DNA from: a virus
Virus record (IMG/VR): IMGVR_UViG_3300028589_000029
Coordinates: 1 to 32,215 of that record
Length of the DNA stretch: 32,215 nt
Reading direction: 5' to 3' (one strand)
The notes below the pieces were generated by a model that saw nothing but the letters and a program-made list of their open reading frames with translations, searched no databases and was not told the DNA's origin. This document shows, piece after piece, positions 4,604 through 30,270 of the stretch. Positions within the stretch are counted from its first letter, which is position 1, and every line of letters begins with the position of its first letter. Made by a program: the position numbers and the translations under genes.

Positions 4604-5483
4604 GCATCAGGAAGCTAGGGCGGCGCTGGCGGACACTACCGCCCGTGCCGTTCTGGCTGAGTGGGCAAAGGTCAAGCCTGAGTCAGTGGCGCGTGATTGG
4701 GCGGCGCTGCTGCCTAGGGTCACGGCTTTCGTTCAGGCTGGCCAGCTCCACGCCGCTGAGGGGTCGCACACCTTCATGCGTGAGTTGCTCGGCGATGAGG
4801 CCAAGGAAGCGCCGCAGGTGGTGCCTGAGCAATTCGCATCGCAGACGCCGGACGGCCGAGACGCTATGGGACTACTGGCCCGCGCAGCGCCTAACGCGAT
4901 CAGCGCACAGCGCAGAGGTTTCAGCCCGCGTGCCGCAATGGCCCGTGCCGCTGCTTTCCTTGACATGGCAGTGCGCACGGTTGTTGCTGACACTGGGCGT
5001 CAGGCCGATCAGGTGGCCATGGTGGGGAACCTTGGTGTGACTGCCTACATCCGCGTGGTGGAGCTACCGGCGTGCGCCCGGTGCATCATCCTTGCCGGTC
5101 GTGAGTACGGCGTTTCCAATGGGTTTCTCCGGCATCCTCGCTGCGACTGCACCATGGAGCCTGTGACCAGGAAGCACACGCCTAGGCCGCTGAGTCCCGA
5201 AGATCTCATTGACAAGATGCCAGCCGCTCAGCGCCGCAAGGTGTTGGGGGAGGCTGGCGCTAAGGCTGTTGCTGACGGTGCCCGGTTGTCCTCAGTGGTC
5301 AACGCGCGCAAGTCGATGGCTCAAGTTGAGATGTTCGGCAAGCGGGTGCAGGTCACGTATGTGGGCACTGGTAGCCGCAAGAACCCTAAGCCACCCCGGT
5401 TGATGCCGGAGGAGATTTACCGTCAGGCTGAGTCGCGGGAGCACGCGATACGGCTGCTGTATAAGAACGGTTTTCTGACGTAG
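4581..5483 (+). CDS. MuF-like minor head / capsid maturation protein
   Basis: 300-aa protein in the standard place after the portal. It carries the hallmark of actinophage MuF-like proteins: PACARCIIL (two cysteines, about residues 165 and 168) followed by RHPRCDC (His and two cysteines, about 185-190), probably a zinc site. The N-terminal two thirds are helical and alanine-rich. The family is associated with portals and early head assembly; some members carry a protease or toxin domain, but none is obvious here, so a protease role is not claimed. GGAGG at 4567-4571 is 9 bases before ATG 4581 and abuts the upstream ATG 4572, so 4581 is preferred. Its stop codon touches repeat copy 2. Confidence 0.85.
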   Translation: MWSPIARRHQEARAALADTTARAVLAEWAKVKPESVARDWAALLPRVTAFVQAGQLHAAEGSHTFMRELLGDEAKEAPQVVPEQFASQTPDGRDAMGLLARAAPNAISAQRRGFSPRAAMARAAAFLDMAVRTVVADTGRQADQVAMVGNLGVTAYIRVVELPACARCIILAGREYGVSNGFLRHPRCDCTMEPVTRKHTPRPLSPEDLIDKMPAAQRRKVLGEAGAKAVADGARLSSVVNARKSMAQVEMFGKRVQVTYVGTGSRKNPKPPRLMPEEIYRQAESREHAIRLLYKNGFLT

Positions 5484-7080: not shown

Positions 7081-7110
7081 GGGGCACCTACTGAAATGAG
7101 TGGGTGCCCC
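7081..7110 (+). repeat. Palindromic repeat copy 3 with paired flanks
   Basis: The core is 7085-7106 (CACCTACT, GAAATG, AGTGGGTG; one A-to-G change keeps pairing as a G-U wobble in RNA). GGGG before and CCCC after lengthen the stem to 12 bp. It lies 15 bases after the capsid gene stop, a good position for a terminator or mRNA 3'-end hairpin, although no T-run follows. Confidence 0.9.
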
Positions 7111-14900: not shown

Positions 14901-15392
14901 GTTCCGACGCTGGCAGATGGTCAGCTTTACCTTGAGGTGCGGAGCGCTGACGCCACGCACAGCTACCTCGCTCGGCTGCGACTGACGCCAACGGGCGTGC
15001 TATCGCTGACGATTCGCAAGCGGGATGCGGCGGAAACGCTGATCAGTGACACGTTCACTGTGCCCGGCACCTATGTGGCTGGCACGTTCTACAACGTCCG
15101 GTTCTCTGTCATTGGCAGCGAGCTACGGGCGCGCGTGTGGGCTGAGGGTACGGCTGAGCCTGCTGCCTGGCAGGTGTCGGCAACCGATGTGAGGTTCTCG
15201 GCGGCTGGCCTAGTGGGTGTCCGCTCGAACCTTGGAGCGGTTGGCAATGCGCCGATTACGGGTAGCTTCAAGAACTTCGCTGTCCTGAACCAGCAGACGA
15301 TGCACGTGCTGCGTACTGCGAGTGGGCCCGCGAAGTTTCAGGTTGCTGGTGGTGCCGTTGGGCTGACGCACCCCTCATTCACTTCTTACTAG
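11994..15392 (+). CDS. Large minor tail protein with lectin-like domains
   Basis: 1132-aa baseplate or tail-tip protein directly after the tape measure. Residues 1-90 (DIHTELLIDGAWQDVSGDVYNREALRISHGRADEGGRADVS) resemble the N-terminus of many Streptomyces-phage minor tail proteins. Three regions look like concanavalin/laminin-G-type jelly rolls: about 95-280, about 350-580 (begins NPIAYWPLEEGAGA) and about 895-1120 (begins DSFNRTVTNGWGTASTGQAW). A middle section around 600-830 (RMERICDEEGIAHRI... DDQNLRNDVTRVRSGG) resembles the tail-tip scaffold part of such proteins. One gene seems to combine distal-tail, tail-lysin-position and receptor-binding parts that other phages split. The domain calls are pattern-based. 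Confidence 0.85.
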   Translation: MAFPLDIHTELLIDGAWQDVSGDVYNREALRISHGRADEGGRADVSKATFLLNNRGGKYSPRNPRSPLFGKIGRNTPVRISIDGGESYLETDGAPANIASTPHNAAFHPTTSLDLRAEVSPDNWRLRGGNQTLIGKWEPTGNQCSYMMRVSYDPSTGNHNLSMLWSTDGTPGGMRQVFASIGWPMPRYAVRWVLAQATGTATMYMARTLDGPWQEITSVSTGVAEPIFNSSAPLEIAPGDTTSEPDRVPFAGRGHRFAVVINGAEVASPDFRHLAPGITSFTDSKARTWALSGTARIANRHTRFEGEIASWPSRWEPSGTDAWVPVQAAGIRRRLSQGVKALDSTLRRRIPSGNPIAYWPLEEGAGATQGYSPIPNVKPLRVIGAEFAADDSLGGSSALPKFTGTTGQFTADVPPSRKLGWHVEMPFFIPAITATEREFFRVRVAGAGTVGATSNNTVAAVAALVSTAGVKVAALNDDSEILGHFLLTTAGAVTAFVGKWNRLQLFTTTDGGTSYLNLRWVDIVNGGFWHARTVMTGSPGRVTQVRCNAGPNIPDVSLGHLAVFDTAGTVAAGGAVNTTTPGTTIYAGADDGFINEAVCARMERICDEEGIAHRISAIQGVFTMGPQRPRTVLEILDECADVDQGMVFDARDKRAIAYRGRGDLYNQTPAMTLDYAGGQREVAVPFEPVEDDQNLRNDVTRVRSGGAEFRAVLEDGPLSIQPPPLGVGTYDESVEINPYSDTQLRDITGWALHLGTWDEARFPVVNMRLHGAPHLVDAWLGLELLDRIDVVNPPEYLPAGDVRLMVQGYEEELTLTTWDVTLNCSPYGPYDVAVVDDPDLGRADTSGSVVTVDTPATSPTIPVTTLVGPPWVTGNGSDFPFSASVAGEVVTVTSITQDMADSFNRTVTNGWGTASTGQAWVNTGGTTTNYAVSAGTGRHIMATTNLTRTSLVPLAGADVDVQCGMAFSAVPTLADGQLYLEVRSADATHSYLARLRLTPTGVLSLTIRKRDAAETLISDTFTVPGTYVAGTFYNVRFSVIGSELRARVWAEGTAEPAAWQVSATDVRFSAAGLVGVRSNLGAVGNAPITGSFKNFAVLNQQTMHVLRTASGPAKFQVAGGAVGLTHPSFTSY

Positions 15393-18409: not shown

Positions 18410-18431
18410 CACATACTCATTTCAGTAGGTG
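18410..18431 (-). repeat. Palindromic repeat copy 8 (CATTTC orientation)
   Basis: CACATACT, CATTTC, AGTAGGTG. The left arm has the same CACATACT change as copy 1. No extended stem. It sits just upstream of a candidate promoter (18434-18460), so it could act as an operator. Confidence 0.85.
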
Positions 18432-18433
18432 GC

Positions 18434-18460
18434 TTGCGCGGGGTCGGGTATCCCTGTAAT
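18434..18460 (+). promoter_or_regulatory. Candidate promoter next to repeat copy 8
   Basis: TTGCGC (18434-18439) and TGTAAT (18455-18460) with a 15-base gap; shifting the -35 by one base gives 16. The -10 is good, the -35 weak. It lies after a terminator and 3 bases after the palindrome, upstream of the 409-aa gene, so a promoter is expected here. Confidence 0.4.
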
Positions 18461-18503
18461 GTCTTCCTTGCAAGCACGGAGCGACACACAAAGGGGCGGG
18501 GCA

Positions 18504-19733
18504 ATGAACGTACAGCGCGGGCGGGGCAAGGTTCACGCGACGGACACCACCCCCGGTTTCCTGGCCGGTCCGGCTTGCGGCGGGAACCTTTCCGCTGAGG
18601 GCTACCGCAAGACGACCGCTGCGGTTGACTGCAAGAAGTGCCTTACCATCCTGGCTAAGGCTGACGACAAGGGAGAGACCATGGCAGCGAAGAAGGACGA
18701 GACCACCACCACGGCAGCAAAGCCGGAGAACGACGCGAAGGTGGACCAGATCACGGCCAACATTGAGCGCGCCCGTTCGCTGGCTGAGGCCGAGAACACG
18801 GAGGGTCTGGCGGCGCTGAACAAGGAGACTGAGGAGCTGATTAGCAGCCTGCCGACGCGTGGCAAGGCTGGCGACTCGCAGACGTGGGCTCAGGCCAAGC
18901 AGGCTTTCCGTAACAGCTTCCGCGAGGCTGCGACGCTCACGGCCAAGGAGGAACCCACCCCCACTACCGCCGTGGTTGTCGTCGAGACGCGCGACTACAA
19001 AGAAGCTGCGGGTGTCTCCGAACTGGTGACGCTGGGCGCCGAAAAGTTCGCCGATGGTGTCCGTGTCCACCTTAAGGCCGCTGACCTGGCTAAGGATGTT
19101 GCCCGCGTGCTGCTGGACATGCGCGTCAGGATGCTGGACAAGGAAGGCCGCCCTGACATCCTGGCCAAGTCTCACGGTGCCAAGCAGGCAAGCAAGGATA
19201 TGTACGCCAGCGCCGGTCAGATGTTCCTTGCGAACAACCCTGAGGCCAGCAAGTTCGACGCAAAGCAGGCTGTAAACAAGCTGATCAAGTCGGTTCAGAA
19301 CCAGATGCCGACCGTTCGCGCTGAGTACCTGCGTGAGCTGGACAACGACGCTGCGGAAGCTAAGCGGTTCGAGGGGCTGGCTCTCCCGGCGGGTGTCGCT
19401 GAGGATGCACCGCTGTCCACAAAGGTGGCTGCTGCCTATGAGGTGGAGTTGGTCAGCCGGTACGAGCTGGACAAGGCACGCAGCGAAAACGGCGAGGACG
19501 ACGAGACCACGGCCAACGGTGGGGGCAACGGTGGGGGCAACGGTGCTCCTGCGGAGGTGGAGCCTCAGACTCCCGCTCAGGTCATCGGCGCTTTCTTTGC
19601 CAGCGCTGAGGAGAGCGTCACGGCCGCTGAGCAGACGTTGAAGGAAGCGAACGACGCTGAGGCCAAGGAAGCGGCCAAGGCTCGCATTGACGCCCTGATC
19701 GCCCACCTCGCCACCGTTAAGGCCGGTCTCTAA
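18504..19733 (+). CDS. Hypothetical protein, 409 aa, with N-terminal zinc-ribbon-like segment
   Basis: Function unknown. Residues 1-59 contain H11, C25, C43 and C46 (VHAT, PACGG, VDCKKCL), a small zinc-ribbon pattern of a type found as short stand-alone proteins in Streptomyces and its phages. From M60 (ATG 18681, with its own AGGGAGAG ribosome binding site) begins a Thr/Lys-rich, then helical, acidic protein. A glycine/asparagine linker (GGGNGGGNG, about residues 334-345) separates a final helical hairpin (about 355-409). ATG 18504 has an AAGGGG site. Both starts look usable, so two products (409 and 350 aa) may be made. A terminator follows. A structural or DNA-linked role is possible but not shown. 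Confidence 0.75.
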   Translation: MNVQRGRGKVHATDTTPGFLAGPACGGNLSAEGYRKTTAAVDCKKCLTILAKADDKGETMAAKKDETTTTAAKPENDAKVDQITANIERARSLAEAENTEGLAALNKETEELISSLPTRGKAGDSQTWAQAKQAFRNSFREAATLTAKEEPTPTTAVVVVETRDYKEAAGVSELVTLGAEKFADGVRVHLKAADLAKDVARVLLDMRVRMLDKEGRPDILAKSHGAKQASKDMYASAGQMFLANNPEASKFDAKQAVNKLIKSVQNQMPTVRAEYLRELDNDAAEAKRFEGLALPAGVAEDAPLSTKVAAAYEVELVSRYELDKARSENGEDDETTANGGGNGGGNGAPAEVEPQTPAQVIGAFFASAEESVTAAEQTLKEANDAEAKEAAKARIDALIAHLATVKAGL

Positions 19734-19748
19734 CCAACCCACCTAGCC

Positions 19749-19781
19749 TGGCCCCTGTCTCACGCTGAGACAGGGGCCATT
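19749..19781 (+). terminator. Terminator, 14-bp perfect stem
   Basis: TGGCCCCTGTCTCA (19749-19762) pairs perfectly with TGAGACAGGGGCCA (19766-19779) around CGC. Only TT follows. It lies 16 bases past the stop of the 409-aa gene. Confidence 0.85.
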
Positions 19782-19800
19782 CCCTGATCGGAGCATCACG

Positions 19801-20067
19801 GTGTTTACTGCACGGGTCGTGCGGTTGCAGGATGGTTGGCTGGTAGCGGAACGCCCATTTGATTCAGCGGACATGGCGGCGCGGCATCTGCTGCTCCTGT
19901 TGTCGATGGTCAAGTGGGACGGGGACAGGGATGAGGCGCTGGCGACGCTGGCGGGTGGGGTGCCCATTGAGTGGAAGGGCATGTCCTACCGCGTGGTACT
20001 GCCAACGGCAATCACGGAACTGATCGAAGAAGTACGAAAGGTAGGGGAGTCGCATGGACGCCGGTAG
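19801..20067 (+). CDS. Hypothetical protein, 88 aa
   Basis: Unrecognised small protein. The first half (VVRLQDGWLVAERPFDSADMAARHLLLLL) looks like two strands and a helix, and the second half (GVPIEWKGMSYRVVLPTAITELIEEVRKV) like strands and a C-terminal amphipathic helix. The start is GTG 19801 with GGAG 7 bases upstream. It is enclosed by terminators before (19749) and after (20099), so it is either a single-gene unit or depends on read-through. No function assigned. Confidence 0.65.
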   Translation: MFTARVVRLQDGWLVAERPFDSADMAARHLLLLLSMVKWDGDRDEALATLAGGVPIEWKGMSYRVVLPTAITELIEEVRKVGESHGRR

Positions 20068-20098
20068 CGACGCCTAGCCGCCCCTCTAAGAGCCTCCC

Positions 20099-20135
20099 AG
20101 CCCCGTTCGGCCCCCGTGGTCGGGCGGGGCTTTTT
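20099..20135 (+). terminator. Rho-independent terminator
   Basis: AGCCCCG (20099-20105) pairs with CGGGGCT (20125-20131), with inner complementary CGGCCC/CGGGC bases, and TTTTT follows at 20131-20135. It ends the unit upstream of the replication genes. Confidence 0.88.
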
Positions 20136-20294
20136 CATGCCCTCAGACGGCCGCTCAGCCGTTCGGCCCCCGGTACACAGCGAGGCAGGCTGCAAGCAAA
20201 GAATGTAGAGGTGTAAAAATGCACTGCATCTCAGTACCTCTATGAAAACTCTATGGGTAAACCGGACTCAGCCTCATTCGTACATTCCTGCACT
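20136..20294. promoter_or_regulatory. AT-richer regulatory gap ahead of the replication module
   Basis: The stretch 20195-20290 is visibly richer in A and T than its surroundings. It contains a dyad TAGAGGT (20206-20212) and ACCTCTA (20236-20242) enclosing a second dyad ATGCA-C-TGCAT (20219-20229). CTATG is repeated at 20240-20244 and again at 20251-20255. A promoter, operator or replication start is plausible because a terminator lies before it and replication genes after it. I see no clear -35/-10 pair. Confidence 0.45.
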
Positions 20295-20340
20295 GGTACC
20301 CCACTCGCTAGACCACCTATGTAGAGACCACCTCACATAG
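20242..20340 (+). CDS. Possible leader ORF, 32 aa (weak)
   Basis: An open frame starting MKTLWVNRTQPHSYIPAL ends with a TAG at 20338-20340, one base before the GGAG of the exonuclease gene. Its ATG overlaps the stop of a still shorter frame (ATG 20219, eight residues MHCISVPL) that has an AGAGGTG ribosome binding site. The arrangement looks like a translated leader coupled to the exonuclease gene, but so short a frame may arise by chance. It contains the conserved intergenic motif copy b. Confidence 0.2.
   Translation: MKTLWVNRTQPHSYIPALVPHSLDHLCRDHLT
20295..20321 (+). repeat. Conserved GTAACC-type intergenic motif, copy b
   Basis: GGTACCCCACTCGC followed by TAGACCACCTATG. It shares the CTCGCTAGACC / TATG block and the following GTAGAGACC with copies at 21185 and 30244 (ACTAGACCACTTATG; CCTAGACCC with CAATGAAGAGACC). 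Upstream of the exonuclease gene. Confidence 0.5.
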
Positions 20341-20351
20341 GGAGTGCAGCG

Positions 20352-23652: not shown

Positions 23653-26106
23653 ATGGACATTTCTGCAATCCTTGAGCACTTTGACAACGTCAGCGAGGAG
23701 CAGGACGGTTACCTTGCCAAGTGCCCCGCGCATCCGGACACGCGTCCGTCGCTGCGCCTCTGGGTTGGCGATGATCGAAAGGTGCGCCTCGCGTGCCGGG
23801 CCATGTGCAAGAACGATGACGTGGTAAAGGCTGCGGGTCTGCGCTGGCCGGACATGTTCGACGTGACCGGCGACGCTGTGACGGTGCCCAAGGAGCGGCC
23901 GGAGTTGGTCAGTATCACGAGTGTCGTTCAGCTCCGCATGTGGCTGGACAGCCTGCCGGTCGGCGACGGTTCGTACGCTGAGGACCGGTTCGGGATCACG
24001 ACCCATGACGCTGAGCGGTTGGGGCTGCGGTTCGCTGAGGCCATGCCGTTCCGCAGCGCTGAGGAGTACGACGCTGCGGTTGCCGGGGGGTTCCTGCCGG
24101 GATTCGTTCCCCGCAGCTTTGTTCGCTTCCCGCGCATGGTCGTGCCCCTTGTGGGGTTCGATGGTGTGACGCGCGGTGCTCAGGGCCGTGACTTGTCCGG
24201 CCGTTGCCCTGGCCGCTGGATCTCCCTGTCTAACCCTGAGGGCCAGCGTTGGGCCCCTTACGGCGTGTTCCGGGGCGAGGCTGGCTATGGGGTCACCCTG
24301 GTCACTGAGGGGCCCGGAGACGGCCTTACAGCGGCTGCCGTGGGGTACGACGCGGTTGCCATTCGCGGTGCTGCGCTGGCCGGTTCGCCGGAGCTGATAG
24401 ACGAGCTGGCCGCTGGTCTGCGCGGCACTCAGGTCATCGTTGCTGGCGACAACGACACTGCCGGGAGCACGTTCTCTATCCGGCTGGCTGAGGGGCTCGC
24501 TGCCCACGGCATCGCTGTCTACGTGCTGGCCATTCCCCATGAGGGCGATGACCTTACCGACTGGCGGGAGCGGGACCCTGAGGGATTTGCGGGCGCCCTG
24601 CACCGTGCTGTGAAGGCTGCGACTCTCGCCGTTGCCCGTGACGCTGCTGAGGCGGCAGACCGCAAGGCGGAGGTTGTGAACCGTACCGGGGCGCGTGCTG
24701 TCACCGACTCGGATGGGGCCGACGCTGCCACCCAACTGCGTGCCATGGAGGAGCAGTTCGGCGGAGACGATGGCAACCCGGATGCGGTGAACGCCTACGC
24801 TTTCGCTGCATGGGCCAACGGCGGAGTGAAGTATGCCAAGGGGCTTGGCTTCATGGTGTGGAACGGGAGCGTCTGGGAGTGTGATTTCGACCTACTGCGC
24901 AGCGAGATTCACCGCATGGGCGCTGCGTTGGCGCTGGCAGGAGAGGCCAAGAAAGCTAAGCCGTTCCTGACCACCTCGCGCATTGACGCACTGGTTACGG
25001 AGCTGCGCAGCGTGCCGGGCGTCAAGGTGCTCACTGAGTCGTTCGACGCTAGCCACCATCTGCTGAACTTCCGTAACGGGACGGTGGACCTGCGTACGGG
25101 GCGGCTGCGTCCCCACGACAAGGCTGACCTACTGACGGTACTCCTGCCGATGGACTATGACCCTGAGGCGCAGTGCCCACGCTGGGAAAAGTTCCTGACG
25201 GAGATCTTTATGGGCAGCGTGGACATGGCGCGCTACATGCAGCGGCTGACTGGCTATGGCATCACGGGTAACACGAGTGAGCAGTGTTTCGCTGTGCTCC
25301 ATGGGTCCGGCGCCAATGGCAAGAGCGTGCTCACTGAGACCCTCACGTCAGTGTTCGGGGGCATCACCAAGACAACGCCGTTCGCCACGTTTGAGGACAG
25401 CGGTAGTGGTGGCATCCCGAATGACATTGCAGCGCTGCGAGGTGCTCGCCTTGTCATGGCGTCTGAGGGTGAGTCGGGCAAGCCTATGTCGGAAGCGGTG
25501 CTAAAGCGGGTGACCGGTAAGGACAAGGTGACGGCGCGTTTCCTCCGGCAGGAGTTTTTCACCTTCGCGCCCACGTTCCTGATCATGCTCGCCACGAACC
25601 ACAAGCCCAAGTTCCGGGGGCAGGACGAGGGGCTGTGGCGGCGCGTAAAGCTGATTCCGTTCGAGCGCTACTTTGCGCCTGAGGAGCGGGACTATGACCT
25701 CGACCGAAAGCTGTTGGCTGAGTCGGCGGGGATAGTCGCTTGGGCGGTACGTGGCGCTGTCGAGTGGTACAAGGGCGGGCTACAGGACCCGTCCGCTATC
25801 AGCAACGCGACGCGTGCATTCCGTGAGACCAGTAACACTCTGGACGGATTCTTTCCGGGTGTGGTGGTTGCCGATCCTGCCGCCACGACGAATGGCGCTG
25901 AGGTCTACCACGCTTACCGCGACTGGTGCGAGGCTGAGGGGTTGCAGCCCAAGGAGGTGTGGTCACGCACAGCGCTCTACAGCGCCCTTGAGGAACGGAA
26001 GATCAGCAAGAAGCGGACGTCCAAGGGAATGGCCCTGGTAGGTATCCGACTCGCTCAGACAGTAGTGAAGCCTACCGGCCCCGGAATCTTTGGGAGTGAC
26101 GACTAA
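23653..26106 (+). CDS. DNA primase-helicase (zinc finger, Toprim, SF3 helicase)
   Basis: 817-aa replication protein. Residues about 20-55 hold a CHC2-like zinc finger (C24, H27, C48, C52; KCPAHPDTRPSL). A Toprim domain follows: E219 in VTEGPGDG and D266-N-D268 in GDNDTAG. The C-terminal part is a D5/SF3 helicase: Walker A G551-S558 (GSGANGKS), acidic E605/E607 (MASEGE) and sensor N649 (LATNHKP), with a C-terminal winged-helix-like tail (YHAYRDWCEAEGLQP). It would prime and unwind DNA at the phage fork. ATG 23653 has GGAGAGGGG upstream. Its TAA stop shares one base with a 36-aa membrane ORF. Confidence 0.93.
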   Translation: MDISAILEHFDNVSEEQDGYLAKCPAHPDTRPSLRLWVGDDRKVRLACRAMCKNDDVVKAAGLRWPDMFDVTGDAVTVPKERPELVSITSVVQLRMWLDSLPVGDGSYAEDRFGITTHDAERLGLRFAEAMPFRSAEEYDAAVAGGFLPGFVPRSFVRFPRMVVPLVGFDGVTRGAQGRDLSGRCPGRWISLSNPEGQRWAPYGVFRGEAGYGVTLVTEGPGDGLTAAAVGYDAVAIRGAALAGSPELIDELAAGLRGTQVIVAGDNDTAGSTFSIRLAEGLAAHGIAVYVLAIPHEGDDLTDWRERDPEGFAGALHRAVKAATLAVARDAAEAADRKAEVVNRTGARAVTDSDGADAATQLRAMEEQFGGDDGNPDAVNAYAFAAWANGGVKYAKGLGFMVWNGSVWECDFDLLRSEIHRMGAALALAGEAKKAKPFLTTSRIDALVTELRSVPGVKVLTESFDASHHLLNFRNGTVDLRTGRLRPHDKADLLTVLLPMDYDPEAQCPRWEKFLTEIFMGSVDMARYMQRLTGYGITGNTSEQCFAVLHGSGANGKSVLTETLTSVFGGITKTTPFATFEDSGSGGIPNDIAALRGARLVMASEGESGKPMSEAVLKRVTGKDKVTARFLRQEFFTFAPTFLIMLATNHKPKFRGQDEGLWRRVKLIPFERYFAPEERDYDLDRKLLAESAGIVAWAVRGAVEWYKGGLQDPSAISNATRAFRETSNTLDGFFPGVVVADPAATTNGAEVYHAYRDWCEAEGLQPKEVWSRTALYSALEERKISKKRTSKGMALVGIRLAQTVVKPTGPGIFGSDD

Positions 26107-26286: not shown

Positions 26287-28137
26287 TTGAAGGTTTACCC
26301 GTACCGCGTGGCTGGCGAAAGCGTCACGGTGAAAGTGCCGGAGACGCGCGAGGATCTTGACGCGTTCCGTGATTGGCTGCGAGACGCTAACGCCCGTGGG
26401 CCGGTCGCTGTAGACACTGAGACAACGGGTCTCGATATCTACTCCGCCACGTTCCGGCTGCGCACGGTCCAGTTTGGCGACGCTGACACTGGGTGGGTTA
26501 TCCACTGGGAGCGAGGCGGCTGGTTTATGTCCTACGCCGAACGAGCCCTTGAGTACATTCGTGAGATGCTCATTCACAACGCGCCGTATGACTGGTGTGT
26601 GTTGGACCGGCACACGCGTTTCAGCATTGAGGTTCTCGCGCCGCGCACCATTGACACTCGGCTCCTCGCTGGCCTGATCGATCCTCGCCAGCCGCAGGAA
26701 GGTGGACGGGGCACCGCCCTTAAGCCTCTCAGCGCCTACTATGTCGATCCGTCTGCCCCGGATACTCAGGGCGACCTTACGGCGGTGTTCCGCTCGCTGG
26801 GTCTCACCAAGGCAACCGGCTGGGCGGGTATCCCGCTGGAGCATGACGTCTACAACTTGTACGCGGGGCTTGACGTAATCCTCACGGCGCGCCTGCACCC
26901 GTGCCTAGTCCGTGAGCTGGAGGCGCTTGAGGTTCGGCCGCGTCTCATTCAGTACGAGCACGAGCTAGCGCGCATCTGTGCAGTCATGCAGCGTCGGGGG
27001 CTGATCCTGGACCGGCCTTACGTCGAGAACCTGTCCGCTGAGCTGCTGGAGACTGAGAGCCGGTACGCAGCGATTGCCGCACAGTATGGGGTCACCAAGG
27101 TTGGGGCACCCGCGCAGGTGACCACGGCACTCATGGCCATGGGGGAGGATCTCACGGAGCGCACGGCGTCCGGCAATCCCAAGGCTGACAAGGCTGTCCT
27201 GTGCCGACTGGCTGACCTAGACCAGAACACGTGGGAGCGCATGCACCTGCGGGCCCCTAACCCGCTGGCTGAGGCTGTCCTGAGGAGCAAGCGCGCTGGG
27301 AAGTGGCGCACGTCGTACGCGGACACGTTCCTTGAGACAGCGGATGCCGATGGTCGGGTGCATCCGTTCATTAACTCCATGCTGGCTCGCACGGGGCGTA
27401 TGTCGATCACCCGCCCCGCGTTGCAGACCCTGCCATCGTCCGATCACCTCATCCGGCGTGCGCTGCTGGCCGAACCGGGTCACGTCATGGTGTCCACTGA
27501 CTTTGCTGCTGTTGAGCTGCGGGTCCTGGCGGCGCTGGCGGACGTCAAGCAGATGAAACGGGCTATTGCCAGCGGCGAGGATCTCCACTCGTTCACCGCG
27601 CGCATGGTGTTCGGTCCTGACTTCACTCCGAAGCATCGCAAGATCAGCAAGGGCATCGCGTTCGGCAAGGTGTACGGAGGTGGGGCAGCCACCATTCAGC
27701 GTCAGACCGGTGCGCCTATGGCTGAGGTGCGGTCTGCGCTGGCTGCATATGACCGGGTCTATCCGGAGGTCAAGCGCATGTCAAACCGCTGGCAGCGTGA
27801 GGCGGCTGAGACTGGCATGGTGCATGTGTCTGTGACTGGTCGGCGCCTGCCGCTGGACCGTCACCGTACGTATGCGGTTGTCAACTATGCGTGTCAGAGT
27901 GCGGCGCGTGACGTGCTGGGGCAGTCGCTGCTGAACCTTGAGGAGGCTGGGCTGCTGGACGCGCTCCGCTTGCCTATCCACGATGAGGTGCTGTGCTCGG
28001 TACCTGAGGGTGAGTCAGCGGAGTATGCGCGTGCAATTGAGGAGTGCATGACCTTTGACCTCTTCGGGGTGCAGATTGAGGCGGAGAGCGAGGTTGGTAA
28101 ACGGTCCTGGGGGAGTCTGTACGGTGCCGCTGCTTAG
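26287..28137 (+). CDS. DNA polymerase I-like (family A) with 3'-5' exonuclease
   Basis: 616-aa replicative polymerase. The N-terminal DEDD exonuclease has D43 and E45 in VDTETTGLD. The polymerase palm and fingers follow: ARTGRMS (about 370), motif A D405 in STDFAAVELR, motif B R451, K455, F459 and Y463 in HRKISKGIAFGKVYG, and motif C H565-D566-E567 in PIHDEV. The F459 position corresponds to E. coli F762, as in Pol I. There is no 5'-3' exonuclease domain. The start is TTG 26287 with GGGGAG upstream. It is flanked by repeat copies 10 and 11 and a long non-coding region follows. Confidence 0.95.
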   Translation: MKVYPYRVAGESVTVKVPETREDLDAFRDWLRDANARGPVAVDTETTGLDIYSATFRLRTVQFGDADTGWVIHWERGGWFMSYAERALEYIREMLIHNAPYDWCVLDRHTRFSIEVLAPRTIDTRLLAGLIDPRQPQEGGRGTALKPLSAYYVDPSAPDTQGDLTAVFRSLGLTKATGWAGIPLEHDVYNLYAGLDVILTARLHPCLVRELEALEVRPRLIQYEHELARICAVMQRRGLILDRPYVENLSAELLETESRYAAIAAQYGVTKVGAPAQVTTALMAMGEDLTERTASGNPKADKAVLCRLADLDQNTWERMHLRAPNPLAEAVLRSKRAGKWRTSYADTFLETADADGRVHPFINSMLARTGRMSITRPALQTLPSSDHLIRRALLAEPGHVMVSTDFAAVELRVLAALADVKQMKRAIASGEDLHSFTARMVFGPDFTPKHRKISKGIAFGKVYGGGAATIQRQTGAPMAEVRSALAAYDRVYPEVKRMSNRWQREAAETGMVHVSVTGRRLPLDRHRTYAVVNYACQSAARDVLGQSLLNLEEAGLLDALRLPIHDEVLCSVPEGESAEYARAIEECMTFDLFGVQIEAESEVGKRSWGSLYGAAA

Positions 28138-28177
28138 GTCACCCTGAGTTTGGTGACTGCCGGTAGCTGCAACCGGT

Positions 28178-28215
28178 CCACTCGTCACCTACTGAAATGA
28201 GTAGGTGACGAGTGG
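28178..28215 (+). repeat. Palindromic repeat copy 11 with longest paired flanks
   Basis: Core 28186-28207 (CACCTACT, GAAATG, AGTAGGTG). CCACTCGT before and ACGAGTGG after extend the perfect stem to 16 bp. It is the third of three consecutive hairpins after the polymerase stop. No T-run follows. Confidence 0.95.
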
Positions 28216-28439
28216 GTCACGGCTGGCCGAAAAGTTTCTGACGGCCTGACCAATGGGTTACCTGCGGTATGCAGGTAACACCCCGGTTACGGAGGGCCCC
28301 TCCCTATCATCCTTAGGGATGACATGGGGTTACGCCTTGGATTCCAATACAACCGATGCTGTCGGGCCGTTGTCTAACGGGTGTGAAAGCGGTTGCGTGC
28401 CCGGATGGCGACGCATACGTTTCAGCCATCGCAGCGCAG

Positions 28440-28461
28440 GTAACCGACTCGCTCACCCACC
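28440..28461 (+). repeat. Conserved GTAACC-type intergenic motif, copy e
   Basis: GTAACCGACTCGCTCAC then CCACC, identical to copy d over the first 17 bases. It lies 33 bases upstream of the sigma-like gene start and at the end of the hairpin-dense region. Confidence 0.6.
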
Positions 28462-28493
28462 AGTGAACGTAGTCACCAGGGGAGGGACCCACC

Positions 28494-29645
28494 ATGAGCA
28501 CCATCACAATCGACGACGTCCGGGCCGCAATGAACAACGACCTCGACGCAACCGCGCGGGTCATTGAGGCGACGGACAGCCGAGTCACCGGGCTGGCCAA
28601 CAAGGCGGCGCACGGCATGGCGTCCACGGGGGACCGACTCGATAACTACCGCGAAGAGTTCGCGCAGGTTGGCCGGATCGCTGTGTGGGAAGCGCTGCCC
28701 CGCTTCACTGGTGAGACCCTGGACAGTTTCTTCGCGTTCATCTACGCCACTGTTGAGGGAAAGTTGATGGATGCCACCCGGCAGGAGCGCAACGGCGCCG
28801 CTGGTGTGGACAAGGATGCAACCAAGACTTTCGGCGCGGTGCTCCGTGACATGGCCGATGGCAACGTGTTGCTCGCTGAGCGCCTCTGTCAGACGGCCCT
28901 TCCCGCTGGTAAGCGTCTCAGCGCCGATCGTGCCAACGCTGCCCGCATGGCCTGGCAAGGTGCGGTTTCCCTGGACGCTCCGGCAGCAATGGACGGCTCA
29001 GCTTCGTACTCTGTGCCAAACGGTGTGGGCGAGCACCTTTGGGAGTCGCTGAGTGTCGCCGACGAGATGCCCAAGGTTCTGCCCAAGGTGGGGGCTGGCA
29101 TGGCCGCTGAGGCGCTGGCAGTGCTCCACCGGTACACATCGGCCTACGCGGTCCTGGCGGCGCTCCCTGAGGCCCCTGAGGACGTTGACGCCATTGAGGA
29201 TGCGCTGACTGTTCCGCGTGACGCTGAGGTGCGCCGCTACATCCTGGACGCTGTGCGTATCCTCCGCTCGTACGTGTCCACTGCGACTGATGCTGAGCTG
29301 GCTGAGGATCTCCGCGAGGTGGCTGACGACCGGCGAGACGAGCGGGCAGCAAAGCAGGAGCGGGTAGCGGCTGCACTCTCCCGCATGGGTGCCGGACAGC
29401 GTGCGGTCCTGGTGCACTCTTTCGGCATCGGCGGTGCTGCTGACTTCGGGTGGGGTGACGCTGGGTCCCTGGAAGGGCTGGCGGAGTTCCTTGAGATCAC
29501 CCCGGACAACACCAAGGTGCAGCGCTCCAAGGCTCGCCTCGCGTTCGCCCGGTACTACATCGCGATCGTTGCCACGGATGAGGACGACGCTGCTGAGTGG
29601 GCTGACGCTGCTGCTGCGATGCGCAAGCACGGGGGCCGCAAGTGA
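28494..29645 (+). CDS. RNA polymerase sigma factor-like protein
   Basis: 383-aa protein with sigma-70-like features. Residues about 50-100 (RLDNYREEFAQVGRIAVWEALPRF, then SFFAFIYATVEGKLMDATRQER) match sigma region 2, with the D-L-x-Q-x-G-R-I-A-x-W-x-A-L pattern. A VSLDAPAAMDG segment (about 159-169) resembles the linker before region 4. The C-terminal part (about 292-355: LSRMGAGQRAVLVHSFGIGG, SLEGLAEFLEITPDNTKVQRSKARLAFARYY) fits region 4. The mid-region (about 185-290) is a long helical insert. It would redirect host RNA polymerase to phage promoters. ATG 28494 has a GGGGAGGG ribosome binding site. The similarity is divergent but ordered as expected. Confidence 0.72.
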   Translation: MSTITIDDVRAAMNNDLDATARVIEATDSRVTGLANKAAHGMASTGDRLDNYREEFAQVGRIAVWEALPRFTGETLDSFFAFIYATVEGKLMDATRQERNGAAGVDKDATKTFGAVLRDMADGNVLLAERLCQTALPAGKRLSADRANAARMAWQGAVSLDAPAAMDGSASYSVPNGVGEHLWESLSVADEMPKVLPKVGAGMAAEALAVLHRYTSAYAVLAALPEAPEDVDAIEDALTVPRDAEVRRYILDAVRILRSYVSTATDAELAEDLREVADDRRDERAAKQERVAAALSRMGAGQRAVLVHSFGIGGAADFGWGDAGSLEGLAEFLEITPDNTKVQRSKARLAFARYYIAIVATDEDDAAEWADAAAAMRKHGGRK

Positions 29646-29971
29646 GCAAGGTTTGCCGACAATGCGGAGAGCGTCAGAACCTCGCTGCGTTCATCGCTGA
29701 CGCCCGGTACAAGGGTGGGCACAGGCACCAGTGCCGGAAGTGCTTGAACGCGTACTACGCTGCGGTGCGTGCGGCGGCTCCTAAGCCCCCTCAGTCACCC
29801 AAGCCACCTACGCCCCCTGAGGTGCTGGCTGAGCGTGCTGAGCGGCGCCGGAAGTATCAGCGGGAGTGGCGGGCCAACTGGCGTAAGGCGAATCCTGAAC
29901 GGGCGCGCGAGGAGTGGCGCAAGTACGAAACGCCAGCGTCTGACTTCCTGACTGCCTGGCGGAACAATTGA
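29642..29971 (+). CDS. Zinc-ribbon protein, likely N-terminal half of a split HNH endonuclease
   Basis: 109 aa. The N-terminus (CRQCGERQNLAAFIADARYKGGHRHQCRKCLNAYYAAV) has C-x2-C and C-x2-C like the first 45 residues of the HNH protein at 23149. A proline-rich linker and a charged helix (AERRRKYQREWRANWRKANPERAREEW) follow. There is no HNH motif in this ORF. GTG 29642 shares GTGA with the sigma-like gene stop, and its own stop TGA overlaps the next start (TTGA). Order, overlap and motif content suggest that it works with, or was once fused to, the next ORF. Confidence 0.7.
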   Translation: MSKVCRQCGERQNLAAFIADARYKGGHRHQCRKCLNAYYAAVRAAAPKPPQSPKPPTPPEVLAERAERRRKYQREWRANWRKANPERAREEWRKYETPASDFLTAWRNN

Positions 29972-30270
29972 AGACACCTCCCGCTGTGAGAGTGCGTCGG
30001 TCCCGTATTGGGGTCCGGCGCACTTTGCGTTCCCGTCCGTGCCCGTATAAGCGCTCTGACATCTTCGCGCGCTGGGATGGTGCGTGTTGTTACTGCGACG
30101 CGCCTGCCGAGCATCTAGACCACGTCAAGCCCATATCCAGGGGAGGGGCAGACGTGGCCCGGAACATCGTGCCCGCGTGCGCTGACTGCAACCTGTCCAA
30201 GGGTGCCCGCTCGCTGGCCGACTGGGTGGCTTCATGGGGGCAGGTAACCGACCCCCTAGACCCGCAATGA
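29968..30270 (+). CDS. HNH endonuclease domain protein (C-terminal half)
   Basis: 100 aa. It carries a full HNH core: CCYCDAPAEHLDHVKPISRGG, then NIVPACADCNLSKGARSLADW, with D-H, N and CxxC-N-x-S-K positions matching the HNH at 23149. Two stretches of DNA (GAGCATCTAGACCACGTC at 30109 and TGCAACCTGTCCAAGGG at 30187) are identical to that gene. The start is uncertain: TTG 29968 overlaps the previous stop and has only a weak GGA upstream; GTG 29986 is an alternative. The N-terminus is arginine-rich (RVRRSRIGVRRTLRSR). Its 3' end overlaps motif copy f. Confidence 0.75.
   Translation: MKTPPAVRVRRSRIGVRRTLRSRPCPYKRSDIFARWDGACCYCDAPAEHLDHVKPISRGGADVARNIVPACADCNLSKGARSLADWVASWGQVTDPLDPQ
30244..30269 (+). 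repeat. Conserved GTAACC-type intergenic motif, copy f
   Basis: GTAACCGACCCCCTAGACC then CGCAATG, followed by AAGAGACC. It lies within the last codons of the HNH ORF and 33 bases upstream of the next gene; it aligns with copies b and c. Confidence 0.55.

Follow-up and report, generated by a model that had tools for sequence, protein, structure and literature searches.

What occupies the largest clearly non-coding gap of a Streptomyces phage, between its DNA polymerase gene and its sigma factor gene? The stretch of DNA analysed here (the window) comprises positions 1 to 32,215 of IMG/VR virus record IMGVR_UViG_3300028589_000029, 32,215 nt in all. Gene content and gene order placed it in the phiC31/phiBT1/TG1 group of Streptomyces phages. 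The closest phage records found were phiBT1, TG1, Vash, Lilbooboo, Rowa and Shaeky, with 70–84% DNA identity in short coding stretches. The window genes follow the phiC31 order: c-type repressor (PF25746; homologue at 18429–19733), exonuclease, P4-family primase-helicase, DNA polymerase I, sigma factor and ThyX. Three of them are used below.

23653–26106, plus strand: P4-family primase-helicase gene, phiC31 gp9a homologue (TIGR01613, D5_N, Toprim); the proposed initiator.
26287–28137, plus strand: DNA polymerase I family gene, phiC31 gp11 homologue (DNA_pol_A and exonuclease domains, PHROG 17), 5' of the gap.
28494–29645, plus strand: phage sigma factor gene, phiC31 gp12 homologue (TIGR02937, PHROG 15865).

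The primase-helicase matched TIGR01613 with 271.8 bits (cut-off 108.7). A first-pass annotation of the window had called the downstream gene sigma-like, and this label was correct: TIGR02937 gave 44.6 bits (cut-off 42.9) and PHROG 15865 matched at E 3e-109. The gap itself extends from the polymerase stop (28137) to the sigma factor ATG (28494), a length of 356 nt (28138–28493). As annotated, it directly follows the polymerase gene and is the sole non-coding gap above 300 bases; the runner-up (19734–20351) probably carries a small gene at 19801–20067, and 284 nt then remain. An ORF at 28253–28567 was considered and rejected, as it had no family match and its frame was broken in most relatives. 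Stops were present in all six frames of the gap in 41–54 of 57 relatives. ARAGORN and Rfam found no tRNA or tRNA-like gene in the gap. Elsewhere, Rfam detected an unannotated tRNA gene just after gp13 in phiC31 (L102, 31424–31510) and phiBT1 (L001, 16413–16486); a tRNA-Gly is annotated at the equivalent position in phage Lilbooboo. A 39-aa ORF annotated within the homologous gap of phage Euratis (L121, 2810–2929) is probably not a gene. In the window at 29642–30267, two neighboring ORFs match successive parts of one endonuclease VII/HNH family (PHROG 1035, positions 63–138 and 146–225), representing either a split gene or a frameshift.

The first-pass annotation had described the gap as dense in hairpins, about eight in a row. 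Perfect stems with loops of 3–12 nt were counted and compared with 300 dinucleotide shuffles. The gap contained nine hairpins with stems of at least 5 bp, against 2.8 ± 1.4 in the shuffles, none of which reached nine. Four stems were at least 6 bp long (0.77 in the shuffles). Both dyads singled out in that annotation were located: the longest palindromic repeat is a perfect 16-bp stem (28178–28193/28200–28215), and the 9-bp stem GTTACCTGC/GCAGGTAAC lies at 28257–28279. The folding z-score of the whole gap was −6.2 to −6.9 on the plus strand and −8.0 to −9.4 on the minus strand, and this strength came mostly from the 16-bp hairpin. Without it, 28217–28435 gave −2.2/−3.0, indicating modest structure, and 28285–28435 gave −0.6/−1.3, which is near random. 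GTTAC/GTAAC occurred at five sites (28257, 28275, 28286, 28329 and 28440); the background in the window was a mean of 0.5 per 356 nt, with a maximum of 5. The proposed GTTAC enrichment was therefore present, but the sites did not form a single array of iterons, as they belong to different elements (the box A hairpin, box C and the early promoter, all described below). As a main reading, the GTTACCTGC dyad as operator of the c repressor was set aside, since the dyad is a single copy in the window where another palindrome is dispersed as expected of an operator.

The untranslated gap holds three modules: a terminator-like hairpin, a set of phased DNA boxes and an early-promoter motif. The outer two are as follows.

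28178–28215: perfect 16-bp hairpin, candidate rho-independent terminator with no T run, 41 nt past the polymerase stop.
28186–28207: copy of a dispersed palindrome, CACCTACT-GAAATG-AGTAGGTG, candidate repressor operator or stoperator inside the 16-bp hairpin.
28439–28475, plus strand: early-promoter motif GGTAACCGACTCGCT... of the sigma gene, repeated before early genes.

The 16-bp hairpin is stable (−37 kcal/mol, z −7.7) and stands shortly after the end of a gene. Its homologue in clade B had a GU:AC ratio of 21:4 on the plus strand, as expected of RNA. The same place is annotated as a terminator in phages Shaeky and Shady. These features suggested that the hairpin is a candidate terminator that may end the polymerase transcript. 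Ingham et al. in 1995 reportedly described rho-independent terminators without a poly-U tail in the early region of phiC31, and conserved inverted repeats have reportedly been described for this phage too. Like those terminators, the hairpin in the gap is a GC-rich stem just past an early gene with no T run; here it is a putative terminator.

The palindrome CACCTACT-6-AGTAGGTG had 12 matches in the window, against 0.11 expected (1002, 5484, 7085, 8998, 10169, 15747, 16975, 18410, 22932, 26240, 28186 and 30666), and its phiC31 analogue, CCTACTCACGTGAGTAGG, had 16 copies. The window copies are 22-nt hairpins with the loop GAAATG/GAAATC or the complement, where phiC31 has CACGTG. At 7085, 10169, 15747, 26240 and 28186, the outer arms are complementary yet differ in sequence between copies, which is terminator-like; some of the remaining copies have non-complementary outer arms. 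One passage of a published account gives phiC31 and L5 many dispersed repressor-binding sites each, 18–30 (PMC4557955). The window palindrome resembles the phiC31 repressor-binding sites and R4/L5-type stoperators in being short, mostly intergenic and present in many copies, and differs from them in that some copies lie in long terminator-like hairpins; the window sites are putative. We read the palindrome as a candidate repressor site, several copies of which, including that at 28186, appear to be built into terminator hairpins. The 12-copy family is probably an operator and a terminator combined.

At the other end of the gap, the motif at 28439 belongs to a repeated family. The phiC31 version, GGGTTGCCGACTCCCTTAC, has nine copies about 50–75 nt before genes 52, 1, 2, 3, 9a, 11, 12, 13 and 25. 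The window version, GGTAACCGACTCGCT, has seven copies before early genes (17175, 20295, 21184, 23609, 26041, 28439 and 30243). It is the same motif family as the phiC31-type early promoters, an assignment made from position and repetition only. Of the GTTAC-like sites, the copy at 28439 is closest to the sigma gene. The sigma gene therefore probably has its own early promoter, and the element to the left is probably not a leader of the sigma gene. Early-promoter motifs often had inverted flanking arms, such as CTGCACT..AGTGCAG (window 20288–20350, 26035–26075 and 28439–28475; phiBT1 14930–14985). Around the sigma-gene copy, 7 of the 9 arm pairs covary within the phiC31 clade.

Gaps were gathered from phage records, IMG/VR and Streptomyces prophages, each running from the polymerase gene to a recognizable sigma gene. 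Among the 93 unique gaps, 91 were 289–724 nt long, and the order polymerase homologue, gap and sigma gene was kept in nearly all relatives checked. In phiC31, the gap occupies 29484–29957. Pairwise DNA similarity between the gaps was mostly lost, so the sequence that they still share stands out. In the window, the strongest conservation was at 28303–28353, an inverted pair of boxes (B and C) followed by ACAAC. The complete box module spans about 130 bp. Its spacing was nearly fixed in about 24 independent (effective) lineages, and the intervening sequence was variable.

28252–28270, plus strand: box A, about −76 to −58 from box C and weakly like it, in the 9-bp hairpin 28257–28279.
28303–28325, minus strand: box B, inverted partner of C, consensus CC..T.ATYC.AAGGATGA, in hairpin 28307–28322 in this phage.
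28328–28344, plus strand: box C, the most conserved block, GGTTACGCCTTGGATTC, consensus GGTNACGCCTTNGAATC.
28349–28353, plus strand: ACAAC block, conserved at +21 to +25.
28371–28382, plus strand: box D, TGTCTAACGGGT, consensus GGTCTNACGGG, at +43, in hairpin CCGTT-GTCT-AACGG (28367–28380).

Box C was the best site for its position weight matrix (PWM) in the window, with 26.6 bits. The runner-up (13.4 bits) lies within the primase coding sequence; it was rejected as a second origin, as it encodes a conserved FDGVT peptide. The box C PWM also peaked at offset −74 as a direct copy (box A, z 5.4) and on the minus strand at −20/−19 (box B, z 6.2/5.3), far above all other offsets. The A–C distance of 74 bp is near seven helical turns. 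Box B (..ATYCNAAGGATGA) is a clear inverted copy of C, with column information of up to 1.8 bits. Because box A is degenerate, the module differs from a classical iteron array of identical units. The sequence of box D at +43 is GGTCTNAC. Boxes A, B and D each lie in a small hairpin in the window, which explains the hairpins noticed at first.

The register of the boxes was tested in 57 phages, using a profile trained without the test clade (leave-one-clade-out) and requiring the best position to fall within 1 bp of the expected one. Box A was in register in 38 of the 57 phages, ACAAC in 37 and box D in 42. About 5.5 were expected at random, and a control stretch between A and B gave 19. Box B scored 57/57, a result that is not independent since B helped define the core. 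Spacing slips between boxes were mostly 1 bp. Spacing that is nearly fixed over 130 bp, with variable intervals and 1-bp slips, fits phased DNA binding better than an RNA with variable helices, we infer.

IMG/VR was then scanned with two core patterns of 19 and 17 fixed bases, both of which matched nearly always between polymerase and sigma genes. For the 17-base pattern, 22 of 23 matches lay between the polymerase and sigma genes or adjoined whichever of them was on the contig, two being on contigs that end before the sigma gene. The one match with neither gene (L315) is probably due to chance. A looser core pattern added only unrelated matches. The boxes were present once per genome. Several clades (e.g., L169/L214/L216/L222) kept the gap and had no recognizable box C. 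Many clades carry an extra 3' half (GCAACGACG, a GCCCCG/CGGGGC hairpin and GTGAC..GTCAC); it is missing in the window, L039, L139 and L155, indicating that the 3' half is not essential to the minimal form. The box element was absent from Rfam, unannotated in the phage records examined and without a match in a plasmid search. No earlier account turned up in the open literature searched, a search that older phiC31 papers lay outside. Non-coding regulatory or origin regions beside phage replication genes are, as a kind, already known.

We favor the reading that the box module is a DNA nucleoprotein site, most likely a replication origin used by the phage P4-type primase-helicase, and hold it tentatively, at slightly under an even chance. 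The polymerase transcript would end at the 16-bp hairpin, and the early promoter at 28439 would drive the sigma gene. The phased boxes, lying between hairpin and promoter, would form a cis-acting DNA element that serves as the origin. Either by itself or together with a partner, the P4-family (superfamily-3) primase-helicase would recognize the boxes, melt the duplex where the core is locally weak and load the phage polymerase, encoded next door.

Several observations are consistent with an origin. Matches to the core in IMG/VR are nearly confined to the interval between polymerase and sigma genes. The gap lies in or next to the replication module, after the P4-family primase, and has stops in all frames. 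In seven phages, the 50-bp segment of lowest stability in the gap ranked among the weakest 2–17% of equal-sized bins; in the window, this segment is the B/C core itself (28303–28352, top 2% of bins). Since intergenic DNA is often locally weak, this is weak support. Against an origin, the gap follows the polymerase gene and not the primase gene, and several gap-bearing clades have no recognizable box C. GC/AT skew in five genomes had no minimum at the gap, and its amplitude was mostly within noise; because nearly all genes are on one strand, skew is a weak origin test, and we discarded it as origin evidence. The first-pass annotation had offered an origin as one of two explanations for the dyads and short repeats. 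These repeats are real, the gap is conserved and the register is kept. The particular features it relied on fared less well: the longest dyad is a multi-copy terminator-like hairpin, and the GTTAC sites make no iteron array.

Known origins offer partial parallels. The ori/crr of phage P4 contains iterons. Origins with P4-type or comparable proteins are non-coding and lie in the replication module or just 3' of a replication gene (PMC6356513, PMC4234260, PMC6092414). Streptococcus phage Sfi21 has a 302-bp non-coding ori (PMC6356513), and phage-inducible chromosomal islands (PICIs) have a non-coding ori of this class (PMC6092414). In multicopy, the Sfi21 ori lowers phage yield. Like the Sfi21, PICI and P4 origins, the gap is short, non-coding and in or beside a replication module; it appears to hold repeated elements, and the replicon encodes its own dedicated primase/initiator. 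It differs from them in that its boxes are few, degenerate, in mixed orientation and nearly fixed in spacing, and in that the element, here a putative origin, lies behind the polymerase gene. Plasmid pRN1 encodes a replication protein with an SF3 helicase, and its origin stem-loop comes after a terminator (PMC4234260). The gap has the same arrangement downstream of a replication gene, the candidate terminator first and the proposed origin element next. The pRN1 origin, however, is one 100-nt stem-loop with little sequence conservation, whereas the gap keeps sequence boxes and not a fold.

The boxes might instead be regulatory DNA with no replication role, bound by a phage or host transcription regulator, by the repressor or by the sigma factor itself, and controlling either the sigma gene or the boundary between the polymerase and sigma genes. 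Regulators show fixed phasing just as typically, and in every case the module sits immediately 5' of the sigma early promoter, box C standing at a median of 287 nt before the start codon. The region also includes a copy of the dispersed palindrome, which probably serves the c repressor. However, the boxes occur once per genome, yet about nine early promoters share the promoter motif, and the usual distance to the start of 265–310 nt is long for a simple operator. We regard this explanation as possible but doubtful.

The other explanation offered at first was a structured non-coding RNA; a structured leader transcribed from the gap was considered along with it. The many hairpins are in its favor, and clade alignments folded far better than column-shuffled ones (−198 vs −88 and −111 vs −40 kcal/mol). 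A candidate helix between B and C (about 28309–28318 with 28335–28344) was 76.6% paired, against at most 57% when slid, and on the plus strand A-U had often changed to G-U and C-G to U-G. Strong compensated versions of it occur in divergent clades (L181 and L125). In L181, a divergent relative, the B/C dyad (gap region 4867–5282) is a fully paired inverted repeat of 14 positions with the same 16-nt spacer. Covariance folding across relatives, the check that the first-pass annotation had proposed, nevertheless gave a weak result: the covariation score of the helix was reached by 34/500 shuffles, and the count of pairs changed on both sides by 275/500. No other helix was common to all clades, the remaining hairpins being clade-specific. 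All-clade mutual information from a MAFFT alignment was unusable, as clade effects dominated. Helices shared by both strands had no consistent GU:AC bias (17:26 and 47:25). The z-score of the 225-nt core region averaged about −2 and was near zero in many phages. Rfam 15 gave no gathering-score match in the window gap or in those of phiC31, phiBT1, L107, L141 and L144, and no conserved promoter was found upstream of box A. The dyads and the conservation of the gap stood, but in the box module sequence and register were conserved rather than fold, which favors an origin over an RNA. Weak covariation, modest structure and the lack of an Rfam match likewise favor a DNA nucleoprotein site. We consider an RNA unlikely. 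A more specific form is quite improbable: an RNA not known before, conserved in phiC31-type phages and encoded by the gap, that would use its boxes and B/C hairpin to contact the neighboring sigma factor, the RNA polymerase of the host or the replication machinery. If this were true, phage regulatory RNAs would gain a new class, one tied to the sigma gene.

That the gap is no more than a terminator, an operator for the repressor and a promoter, one after another with spacer between them, is very improbable: these are its best understood parts and account for the longest palindrome and for one of the GTTAC sites, but the most conserved sequence (28303–28353) falls between them and is part of none of the three.

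phiC31 is a model phage and the source of widely used genetic tools, and the most conserved non-coding part of the phiC31-type gap has no annotation in the records searched. If the box module is an origin, it would be the replication start of the whole phage group and would provide a testable match of a P4-type primase to its site. Should it prove to be an RNA or a regulatory site, it would explain how the phage keeps its sigma gene separate from the genes for replication.
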